Made by a program: the position numbers and the translations under genes. This document shows, piece after piece, positions 9,430-49,868 of a stretch of 64,000 nt of DNA (its first letter is position 1; every line of letters starts with the position of its first letter). The stretch spans positions 1-64,000 of IMG/VR virus record IMGVR_UViG_3300036770_003386; one strand, given 5' to 3'. This DNA is from a virus. The notes beneath the pieces are model-generated. The model worked only from the letters and a program-made list of their open reading frames with translations. It searched no databases and had not been told where the DNA came from.

Positions 9430-10716
9430 TTACTTTTTTCTATTTCTATTTATGAAATTCTTTATATTAGATACTCCCATTACATCCATTACATTCTTCC
9501 TATAACCATCAGTTCCAATTAAAGTATTTCTTTTCCCAGAAACTCTCATTTTTCTAGACATACTCTTTTCTGTATATGATTCAGAGACATCTTTAATCCA
9601 AGACTTAAACATCATTCCATCTTCAGTGACACAAATTAAATAATTTGTTCCTCTGCGAATTATATTGCCAGAAAGACCCGTATTTAAATTTTGAACAATA
9701 TCTCCTACTCTAAAAATATTTTCAGAAACATAATTTTCTCTTAAAGATTGTAAATCAAATTTCGGAGCAATCTCCCAAAGATTATATCCTTCTTGCTGTA
9801 TTTCCTCTATTCCCATTCCTTGACGAACTAAATCAAATAATTGAATAATTTCTTTTCTAGGAATTGAAGGTGGAATTAAATTTCTAAAGGTAACAAAATC
9901 TCCTTCAGCAGCGGCAAGTCTCATTCTTGAAGAAGTTATTCCGCTAATCTCCTTATCATCAGCATCAATTTCTCCTACAGGGAAAACTTCAACTGTATCA
10001 AATTGATATAATTGTCCATTATAAGTATTAGACAAATTTTCAAATTCTTTTACTCTAGTATTTCCACAAATTATTCTTATTCCAGAATATCCATCATTGT
10101 GCGCTTTTTTTAAAGTATCAAAGATTGTAATTTGATTTGAATCATTTACAATTCTCTCTCCATGATTTGGAAATAATTTCCTCATGAAAAATATTTTAGT
10201 ATCAGGATCCAACGGATTTTTCTTAGAATCAAAACTTCTTGATGGAACAATTATATAATCTCCTCCTTCTTCTGCGGCAATTTGTGCTGCAGTATCCATA
10301 AGTTCTTGATGAGCAACTGTTGGTGGATTAAATCTACCAAAAACAATATTTAAAACACCTTTTGTTTTTTCTACAGGTATAAAACTCTGAGGTATTTGCT
10401 CTTGTGGAATTTCCTCTTGTGGAATTTGTTCTTGAGGTATTTCTTCCTGGGGAACTTGTGGAGTTTGTTGTACTATTGCTGAATCATTGTAATTAGGAGA
10501 AGCAATTTGCTTTTCTCTTGGAGTTTGTGCTGGATCTTTTCCAGGTATTCTTTGTCTTTTATTGTAGTATTGAAGACCACCACCAACTGTCTTGGCTTCA
10601 AATTCGCCAGTTGCTCTATTATACCAACCACCATGTCCATCACCTACAAGACCTAATCTTTTTGCTTGTTGAGATGCAGAGGTTGCTTCTGTAATAAATG
10701 TTGAAAATAATTTCAT
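9430..10716 (-). CDS. Capsid-targeted cytidylyltransferase-like protein
   Basis: 428 residues from the ATG at 10716; a longer reading would run into the tRNA gene, so the internal start is preferred. Residues 1-11 (MKLFSTFITEA) match the T4 capsid-targeting pattern. A GDGHGGWYNRATGEFEAKT module follows at about 24-44, then a spacer with EEIPQEQIPQ repeated twice (91-110). Residues about 119-290 form a nucleotidyltransferase fold: GRFNPPTVAHQELM corresponds to the [HT]xGH nucleotide site and ISGITSSRMR to the ISSTxxR site of NMN/FAD/CTP-type transferases. The C-terminal part (about 340-428, RRGTNYLICVTEDGMMF) is a common cyanophage structural module. The substrate is unknown. The combination implies an enzyme packed in the head. 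Confidence 0.75.
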   Translation of the reverse strand: MKLFSTFITEATSASQQAKRLGLVGDGHGGWYNRATGEFEAKTVGGGLQYYNKRQRIPGKDPAQTPREKQIASPNYNDSAIVQQTPQVPQEEIPQEQIPQEEIPQEQIPQSFIPVEKTKGVLNIVFGRFNPPTVAHQELMDTAAQIAAEEGGDYIIVPSRSFDSKKNPLDPDTKIFFMRKLFPNHGERIVNDSNQITIFDTLKKAHNDGYSGIRIICGNTRVKEFENLSNTYNGQLYQFDTVEVFPVGEIDADDKEISGITSSRMRLAAAEGDFVTFRNLIPPSIPRKEIIQLFDLVRQGMGIEEIQQEGYNLWEIAPKFDLQSLRENYVSENIFRVGDIVQNLNTGLSGNIIRRGTNYLICVTEDGMMFKSWIKDVSESYTEKSMSRKMRVSGKRNTLIGTDGYRKNVMDVMGVSNIKNFINRNRKK

Positions 10717-37898: not shown

Positions 37899-38135
37899 TT
37901 ATAAAGGGGAAAACATTGTACTTCCAACAAGTCTTTTTACAAATTTATCCGAATAAGATGAATTTGGTTTTGGAGTTTGTTTTTTTGGTTTTGATAAACT
38001 CATAGGAGGTGGACCAGCAGGTCTCATTGCAGATTGTATATTTTTTTGCACTCCCGCATCACTAAGTTTAAATACGCTATTTGGACTTATTGGATCTCCT
38101 ACTGCCTCATTAATAAATTGTTTGAATGTCTTCAT
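37899..38135 (-). CDS. Small protein with capsid-targeting N-terminus
   Basis: 78 residues. It starts MKTFKQFINEAVGDP, very close to the T4 internal-protein leader MKTYQEFIAEA, so cleavage after NE by gp21 is predicted. The rest is Pro/Ser/Lys-rich and basic, with PSYxKFVKRLVG-like tail residues. It probably enters the prohead core and leaves with the DNA. It lies directly downstream of gp23 after a strong terminator. Confidence 0.75.
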   Translation of the reverse strand: MKTFKQFINEAVGDPISPNSVFKLSDAGVQKNIQSAMRPAGPPPMSLSKPKKQTPKPNSSYSDKFVKRLVGSTMFSPL

Positions 38136-39669: not shown

Positions 39670-40797
39670 TCACTTCTTGGCGACTCTACTGAGAGTCTGA
39701 AGATATGCTCCCATCATTGGTGATACAGATTCAGTTAAATCTGAACCATAAGAAGTCTCTTCAGATAATGTCTCGGAGTCATCTCTTTGAGTACCAGCAG
39801 GTCTGGTTGGGAAATATGATTCCCTCAGAGTTACCAGTTTCTCACGATAGTTTTCTTCACTATCAAACTCAACATTTTCTGCAAGAGAAGCGAGTTTGTC
39901 CTTCTGAGAAAGTGCGAGACCCTCAGCGACATCTGCAAAGATTACATCAGCAACCGACTCTGCTAATCTTCTATTCAGAGCAATATTTCTTTCAATTTGC
40001 TCGTTGAGTTTTTCTTCCATTTCATCAAGTTTATCTACCATACTCTCGATTACATCATATCTATCTTCAGGGATTGAAACATAATGATCTTCAAAAAGAC
40101 CTTTCATTCCTTGGAGGAATGATTCTGTCATTTCGGTCTTAAGACCGTGCTCAACTGCGAGTGCATTCTCTTGAATCCACTCGTCAGCAACATACTCAAG
40201 ATAAGCGTCTAAACGCTCAGTAAGTTCTTGTTTGATGAACTCAACTTCTTCAACAAGAGCATTTTCATAAGTCTCTTGAAGTTGTTCTTTAATTTCAGAA
40301 ACTTTTGAACGAATAGCAGTCTCAAAAATAGTACGTGCTTTTTCTTGAAACTCCTCAGAAAGCTCTTCACCAGCAAGAAGAGCATTGACATCTTCTTCGA
40401 TATCAAATTCTTCTTCTACTACTTCTTCTTCGTCGTCACCTTCTTCTGTGACTTCTTCTTCTGCTACTTCTTCTTCACCACCCTCTTCTGCAACTACCTC
40501 TTCCTCTTCTTCGGAAATAGTTTCAGATTCTTCATCAACAGTTTCTTCTTTAACTGCTGCTGCTTTTGCATTAACAACATCCTTTACTTGAGCAAGAGTT
40601 GTTGCTGGATCTTTAATTTTTGCAGAATCGTCGTCTGGACGATAGTTATCTGGAGTAGGGCCACCTAAATCTTCCCATGCACCAGTCTGCCCAGGTGTTG
40701 CGACACCGGAAGCATTTCCAGATTGCATTGGTTCTGCAGGTTTTGCGCCTTTGGTTACTACGTTTTCCATTTCTTGTAAATTTTTACCAACGGACAT
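39670..40797 (-). CDS. gp22: Prohead core scaffolding protein gp22
   Basis: 375 residues. The middle (about 95-155) is a long run of Glu/Asp (EEEEEVVAEEGGEEEVAEEE), followed by a helical, coiled-coil region (160-330) such as ARTIFETAIRSKVSEIKEQL. gp22 is the main scaffold inside the prohead and is degraded by gp21. Its place between gp21 and gp23 is as in T4. A TATAAATA promoter lies 32 bases upstream. Confidence 0.9.
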   Translation of the reverse strand: MSVGKNLQEMENVVTKGAKPAEPMQSGNASGVATPGQTGAWEDLGGPTPDNYRPDDDSAKIKDPATTLAQVKDVVNAKAAAVKEETVDEESETISEEEEEVVAEEGGEEEVAEEEVTEEGDDEEEVVEEEFDIEEDVNALLAGEELSEEFQEKARTIFETAIRSKVSEIKEQLQETYENALVEEVEFIKQELTERLDAYLEYVADEWIQENALAVEHGLKTEMTESFLQGMKGLFEDHYVSIPEDRYDVIESMVDKLDEMEEKLNEQIERNIALNRRLAESVADVIFADVAEGLALSQKDKLASLAENVEFDSEENYREKLVTLRESYFPTRPAGTQRDDSETLSEETSYGSDLTESVSPMMGAYLQTLSRVAKK

Positions 40798-40838: not shown

Positions 40839-41489
40839 TTATAAATTTGAAAGAAACTCTTGGAACAATAAAACCTTATTTTCTTGAAAAGTTCTTTCAT
40901 CAACTAAAGTATTAATTCTACGCTTTGTTGATTCGGCAAGTCTTTCACGAAGAATTCCACCTTCCCAAATCCACTCTTTACCTTCCATAATTCCTTGAAC
41001 AAAAGCATCAGGAGCAGAAGGATCGGCAACGATATCAGCAGCAGTTGCTAACATGAAATCTTCGCCAACAACTTTATGACCTTCATTAGTCATTTTAAGT
41101 GATCCTACTCCACGAGAAGAAACACCAAGGCAAACACCTTCACCAATTAATGATTGGGCAATTTTACCCATTGGTGTATCAAGAAGTTGTGCCTTACCTC
41201 TAAAATTATTTCCCTCACACTGAAGAGAAACAATTTTATGAGAAACACGATCAAGATTTACAGTTGGACCATCTGGGTGACCAAGTTCACCTAAAGCACG
41301 TCCTTTATTGACAAAAGATTCTGTATATCTCTTTACTTCACGGGAGAGTGTTTCCATAGGATACATTCTTCCATTACGATTACAAATGTCTCCCTGAAGG
41401 AAGATTCCCTCAATAAACATTTTTTTAGAATTACCCTTTCCTTCGGTAATAAATTTAACTTCTGATACTTCTTCCGTGATTAATTTCAT
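40839..41489 (-). CDS. gp21: Prohead protease gp21
   Basis: 216 residues, herpes-protease-type serine protease. The probable catalytic His is in GELGHPDGPT (H71) and the Ser in LGVSSRGVGS (about 124-125). It cleaves gp23, scaffold and capsid-targeted proteins after [LI]xE. Its substrates in this window probably include the proteins starting at 72, 10716, 38135 and 49868. Confidence 0.93.
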   Translation of the reverse strand: MKLITEEVSEVKFITEGKGNSKKMFIEGIFLQGDICNRNGRMYPMETLSREVKRYTESFVNKGRALGELGHPDGPTVNLDRVSHKIVSLQCEGNNFRGKAQLLDTPMGKIAQSLIGEGVCLGVSSRGVGSLKMTNEGHKVVGEDFMLATAADIVADPSAPDAFVQGIMEGKEWIWEGGILRERLAESTKRRINTLVDERTFQENKVLLFQEFLSNL

Positions 41490-49559: not shown

Positions 49560-49868
49560 TTAATCAGTCCAAGTTAATCTTTCTGGTTGATATCTTTGTG
49601 CGCTTTTAATCCTAGAAGTATTTACCTCACCAGGATAAATGTTATGAACAATTGCACCAGGATATTCTCCTTGAATTTGCTCTGCAAGTTCATTTCTGGT
49701 GAGCATTTTTCCTTCTACTTCTAAACGATACATTTTTCCTTCCCAGACAACATCAGCAAAAAAAGACTCGCTTGCTTGCTCTGGTTGCGAAGACCCTATA
49801 TTTAAAGTCCCATTGAAATCTCCATTAATGGTGATGCTTTCTGATAAAAACTGTTGAAAACTTTTCAT
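49560..49868 (-). CDS. Small protein with capsid-targeting N-terminus
   Basis: 102 residues from the ATG at 49868, which overlaps the stop of the upstream gene (TAATG). It starts MKSFQQFLSESITINGD, fitting the T4 capsid-targeting pattern with cleavage after SE. The rest is a small mixed domain: FFADVVWEGKMYRLEVEGKM, LTRNELAEQIQGEYPGAIVH. The likely site is the head interior; the role is unknown. Confidence 0.75.
   Translation of the reverse strand: MKSFQQFLSESITINGDFNGTLNIGSSQPEQASESFFADVVWEGKMYRLEVEGKMLTRNELAEQIQGEYPGAIVHNIYPGEVNTSRIKSAQRYQPERLTWTD

Follow-up and report, generated by a model that had tools for sequence, protein, structure and literature searches.

The window analysed here, a stretch of 64,000 nucleotides (positions 1 to 64,000 of IMG/VR virus record IMGVR_UViG_3300036770_003386), belongs to a T4-like cyanophage: a major head protein, a scaffold and a head maturation protease are encoded in it, together with what we take, from their sequences, to be replication genes. 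The minus-strand ORF 10716-9430 (428 amino acids plus stop) encodes an adenylyltransferase-like protein, very probably head-targeted, of the PHROG_395 / T4-GC190 family. The preliminary description of this DNA had proposed an enzyme-like gene at 9430..10716 (-) and left its strand unstated; the gene is real, and both of the motifs named there can be located in it. The 428-residue ORF matches PHROG_395 'cytidyltransferase' (1.1e-85) and Pfam PF01467, CTP_transf_like (1.2e-4, above the Pfam cut-off), and by tblastn the protein matches 557 phage records, mostly cyanophages.

Read from its N-terminus, with all coordinates on the minus strand, the protein begins with a predicted capsid-targeting leader, MKLFSTFITE (residues 1-10, 10687..10716), recognised by an in-register match to T4 IPII and IPIII; the prohead protease is predicted to cut just behind it, between E10 and A11. 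Next come a 'DGHG' beta module (residues 12-62, 10531..10683) and a Gln/Pro-rich linker (residues 63-118, 10363..10530), which has a pLDDT of ~30-60 over most of its length and is the fastest-evolving segment in most comparisons. PF01467, an AlphaFold model and Foldseek together delimit an adenylyltransferase-like Rossmann core (residues 119-305, 9802..10362). Within it, alignment and per-position counts place the motif GRFNPPTVAH, with Ala for the usual Gly135, at residues 127-136 (10309..10338) and ITSSRMR, the equivalent of ISSTxxR with an invariant R266, at residues 260-266 (9919..9939); the longer string ISGITSSRMR covers residues 257-266. The remainder (9433..9801) is a family-specific C-terminal region, defined by occurrence counts and the model, with a small beta-rich domain at residues ~340-379.

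The C-terminal region had been described as a cyanophage virion module, which the occurrence count contradicts: because it is found once per record in 476 records, always in association with this gene or the genes next to it, it is not a general virion module. The module common to other virion proteins is the N-terminal one (residues ~12-62). An HMM of residues 12-62 matches S-CREM2 gp12 (3.5e-10), S-CREM2 gp14 (twice), S-CRM01 g128 (2e-11) and the S-CRM01 kinase g130 (1.3e-5), all proteins other than the transferase, and returns nothing significant in T4 or S-SZBM1.

Fold, active site and selection

What kind of enzyme does the core resemble, and might it still be active? AlphaFold gives the core (pLDDT ~85-95, against a mean of 76 for the whole model) a Rossmann-like fold. 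Foldseek places NaMN/NMN adenylyltransferases and CoaD at the head of its PDB matches (E 3e-6 to 1e-4), with NadD at 3e-6 and CoaD matching the core nearly as well as NadD. The nucleotidyltransferase fold proposed from the motifs is thereby upheld, with NaMN/NMN adenylyltransferases as nearest neighbours. Like NadD, human NMNAT and CoaD, the protein combines a Rossmann-like core with GxFNPxTxxH and SSxxR motifs; unlike them, it is a distant member, with 12-18% identity to those structures and scores below the NCBIfam cut-offs. Among NCBIfam subfamilies, those of NMN/NaMN adenylyltransferases come closest, every one of them scoring far short of its cut-off; for the curated equivalog TIGR00482 the score was 14.7 bits against a cut-off of 112. 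A PDB sequence search with the single protein found no match, and the best match of a PDB profile search was UPF0348 MJ0951 (E 0.04). The function 'cytidyltransferase' was set aside: it is a Pfam name only, and the closest solved structures work with ATP.

The preliminary description had depended on a nucleotide site that was not lost. This stands for the catalytic motifs, which are kept, and not for three family-conserved residues, which are replaced. At the [HT]xGH site, TVAH retains T133 and H136, while Gly135 has become Ala in the window and in near relatives; all 12 sequences of the near clade carry G135A, D220T/E/G and R250I/V/F, whereas almost all other relatives, leader-bearing and leaderless, keep the three residues. 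Activity on the ancestral substrate is therefore doubtful. We read the replacements as a changed pocket; loss of activity is possible.

Might the fold have ceased to be catalytic in this lineage, leaving a packaged internal or core protein, or a binder of nucleotides or of a host protein, like T4 IPI-III? We consider this less probable than the reading preferred below, and still a serious minority possibility. The uniformity of the three replacements in the near clade, set against their retention almost everywhere else in the family, favours it, as does the precedent of the characterised T4 CTS proteins IP1-3, which are non-enzymatic restriction inhibitors (PMC12373910). What counts against an inactive fold is that H136, N130, K166, K174, R221, D251, D253 and R266 are still invariant and that the core is under purifying selection: dN/dS is ~0.1 to 0.2 in the near clade, with core dN of 0.05-0.14 against dS of 0.54-0.94 for the near relatives L002-L010. 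Eukaryotic NMNATs likewise do without the Gly of HxGH, a further point against loss of catalysis. The sequence itself shows the leader, the fold, the motifs and the purifying selection, and the chances that some nucleotidyl transfer persists in the window lineage appear about even. NMN or NaMN as the acceptor is a tentative suggestion, and one we would not expect to be correct. A HIGH-superfamily adenylyltransferase does occur in phage NAD salvage, in NadV + NadM/NadR pairs thought to counter NAD depletion (PMC9503650); the 428-residue protein resembles these in being a phage member of that superfamily and differs in having neither a Nudix nor a kinase fusion.

The leader and probable carriage in the virion

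The leader of T4 IPIII, MKTYQEFIAE, has been dissected by mutation, with residues 4 and 7 found to be important for targeting and residues 8 and 10 for cleavage (PMC9026906). MKLFSTFITE|A aligns with it in register and agrees with it in residue class at positions 4, 7, 8 and 10: F4 and F7 occupy the aromatic targeting positions, and I-T-E|A at positions 8-11 fits the gp21 cleavage signature [LI]xE|[AG]. In IMG/VR, each of the 80 nearest relatives opens with MK + F..F[IL].E or something close to it, and by regular expression the leader is found in 158/158 copies of the cyanophage type, Syn9-like copies included, and in 0/41 distant copies. Among 118 distinct leader-bearing proteins, position 4 is F or Y and position 7 is F throughout, position 8 is L, I, V or F, E10 is present in 118/118 and A11 in 117/118, while positions 3, 5, 6 and 9 vary freely. 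The four T4-mapped positions are kept in 117 of the 118, among which there are 37 different 11-mers. Because these positions stay fixed despite such variety, and because the near-clade core has the low dN/dS given above, leader conservation is more than chance, and the capsid-targeting leader proposed in the preliminary description is well founded.

Two further components of a T4-type packaging route are encoded in the same window on the minus strand: a gp21-type prohead (head maturation) protease, the predicted leader-processing enzyme (40839..41489, PHROG_207, 1.8e-80), and a gp22-type head scaffold, the core part that CTS proteins join in T4 (39670..40797, PHROG_237, 8e-114). The arrangement is like that of T4 IPI-III in its ten-residue N-terminal leader, its E|A at the cut and the presence of a prohead protease in the same genome; unlike those small restriction inhibitors, this protein is 428 residues long and has both an adenylyltransferase-like core and a further module. 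Run over T4 itself, the leader pattern picked out gp61.1 and two more reading frames besides IPII and IPIII, and the T4 major capsid protein holds the same context, FGSFLTEA. T4 Alt, which begins MELITELFDED, does not fit the pattern used here. As a separate observation, T4 gp61.1 (54 amino acids, L243:18966-19130, minus strand) starts MKTFKEFIKED, fits the pattern and, from its sequence, may be an unrecognised T4 head cargo.

Members of the same family, cyanophage T4-GC190 'cytidyltransferase' or NMNAT-like proteins, have already been shown by others to be present in purified virion preparations. Mass spectrometry detected the T4-GC190 protein of S-SM1 (PMC3037559) and the S-SCSM1 orthologue (PMC9602691), and S-SZBM1_140 was found with 2 peptides (PMC9146016) and S-CREM2 gp154 with 3 (PMC10665884). 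Each of these orthologues bears the leader: it is present in the S-SM1 protein, reads MKSFLQFLKEA in that of S-SCSM1 (which also has the DGHG module and is 45% identical to the 428-residue protein), MRFRQFIIEA in S-SZBM1_140 and MKNFSSFLTEA in S-CREM2 gp154. Virion carriage of the family is thus already published; the link to the leader, unmentioned in the available portions of those papers, is new here. The window lineage differs from the published proteins in its three altered family-conserved residues.

Is the leader associated with virion carriage more generally? In S-CREM2 the leader pattern marks 5/52 virion-detected proteins and 0/167 others (p = 6e-4), for a pattern defined after looking at those same data, so that only S-SZBM1 provides an independent comparison, and alone it is not significant (1/30 detected against 1/188 undetected, p = 0.26). 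Pooling both proteomes gives p = 2e-4, and a T4-only version of the pattern over both gives p = 0.02. The strict [LI]xE[AG] anywhere in residues 5-18 shows no enrichment in S-CREM2 virions (1/52 against 2/167); the fuller pattern with aromatic positions is needed for the S-CREM2 enrichment.

It is improbable that the protein is an ordinary cytoplasmic NMNAT-like auxiliary enzyme, its virion presence a matter of carry-over and its leader incidental. Carry-over after CsCl purification is conceded as a possibility by the S-SCSM1 (PMC9602691) and S-CREM2 (PMC10665884) authors, and distant relatives, 121Q gp418 for one, stand alone and have no leader. Carry-over and an incidental leader would nevertheless have to account for detection of orthologues in four independent phages, for a leader kept at T4 functional positions in nearly every distinct relative, and for the recurrence of this leader on further enzymes detected in virions. 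Because it combines a T4-type leader with relatives in purified particles, it is probable that the protein travels inside the head and reaches the host at infection. Packaging itself, as the preliminary description had it, we regard as highly likely, given the in-register leader, the prohead protease of the window and the leader-bearing orthologues detected by others. In the open-access papers searched, 'capsid targeting' and 'cyanophage' occur together only in one T4 review.

Other leader-bearing genes and the DUF6267 neighbour

The leader is not confined to the transferase. Among the leader-marked virion proteins of S-CREM2 are a SAM lyase (PF23780, 2e-19) and a kinase whose match is weak. 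Beyond the window, the analysis covered the record as three stretches. The phage studied here has three further leader-bearing ORFs, all on the minus strand. One, outside the window at record positions 93302-93823, encodes a 173-residue GNAT acetyltransferase (PF13508, 4.6e-8) with the leader MKTFSQFVQEA, and its S-CRM01 relative starts MKTFDEFLTEG. The other two are candidate head cargoes in the window: a 78-residue ORF (37899..38135, MKTFKQFINEA) that adjoins the major capsid gene, and a 102-residue ORF (49560..49868, MKSFQQFLSES, PHROG_1742), whose counterpart S-SZBM1_191 also bears the leader and went undetected in S-SZBM1 virions (PMC9146016). S-CREM2 gp12 (L085:7704-10313, minus strand) carries both FASFMAEA and the DGHG module and matches PHROG_3561; its 'Cas9' annotation has no Pfam match at E 0.01, and it is therefore not counted as an enzyme.

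A second family recurs beside the transferase. DUF6267 (PF19782) adjoins the transferase gene in Syn9 and S-SZBM1, and lies within three genes of it in HTVC008M and nearby in S-CRM01; in loci L225 (1819-3591), L227, L232 and L234 it occurs as a fusion with this transferase core. Its invariant motifs KxDGAP, EGxV and KxV resemble those of ATP-dependent ligases, and on these motifs DUF6267 is a putative ligase-type nucleotidyltransferase; a PDB search with its model gave nothing significant, the second-ranked match being human DNA ligase IV at E 0.5. The leader changes places between the two proteins. It is on the transferase and absent from DUF6267 in 76 loci, on DUF6267 and absent from the transferase clearly in 7 loci and weakly in 9 more, and on both in no locus; since a good number of these loci are close relatives, few of the events are independent. 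Loci in which a leader-bearing DUF6267 stands beside a leaderless transferase include L202:345-1571, L205:1715-2938, L207:1725-2948 and L209:758-1978. DUF6267 is mentioned in none of the open-access papers searched.

Such an association raises the alternative that the family acts with DUF6267 on nucleic-acid or tRNA ends, rather than on NMN. The neighbourhood, the fusions, the ligase-like motifs and a leader that marks one partner and never both would all suit a joint reaction of this kind. Yet the fold search for DUF6267 was not significant, and the 121.8-kb record of the phage, possibly a fragment, contains no DUF6267; on balance we think action on such ends unlikely.

Proposed delivery at infection

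The reading we prefer, and which we think probable, is that the protein is a packaged, injected head cargo that retains its fold, a variant of the T4 internal proteins. Residues 1-10 would bind the scaffold core as a T4-type capsid-targeting sequence, and the gp21-type protease would then cut after Glu10, a step that, judging from the cleavage signature, is likely. The DGHG module, linker, core and C-terminal domain would remain inside the head beside the DNA, and the processed protein would accompany it into the cell; ejection is somewhat less certain than cutting, and we still expect it. At the start of infection the core might use ATP to adenylylate a small acceptor, with NMN or NaMN, and hence the making of NAD, the likeliest among the candidates.

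This resembles T4 Alt, a head-packaged ADP-ribosyltransferase, in its proposed logic of a head-carried enzyme acting on the host at once, and by that analogy early action on the host, as suggested in the preliminary description, is a reasonable inference. Fold and chemistry are unrelated: T4 Alt consumes NAD, whereas an NMNAT would make it.

A broader and speculative possibility, which we hold to be rather unlikely as a whole, is that the heads of T4-like cyanophages take an unrelated-enzyme kit (adenylyltransferase, kinase, SAM lyase, GNAT) via an interchangeable T4-type tag, sometimes with the DGHG module, and that the adenylyltransferase and the putative ligase-type DUF6267 form a two-enzyme cargo in which a tag on one partner is enough. 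Virion-carried cyanophage NMNAT-like proteins have been reported several times before as unexplained or as possible carry-over. A T4-type leader kept at the mapped positions offers a mechanism for their packaging and lets other head cargoes be predicted from sequence, and what T4-like cyanophages deliver in the first minute of infection becomes a directly testable question.
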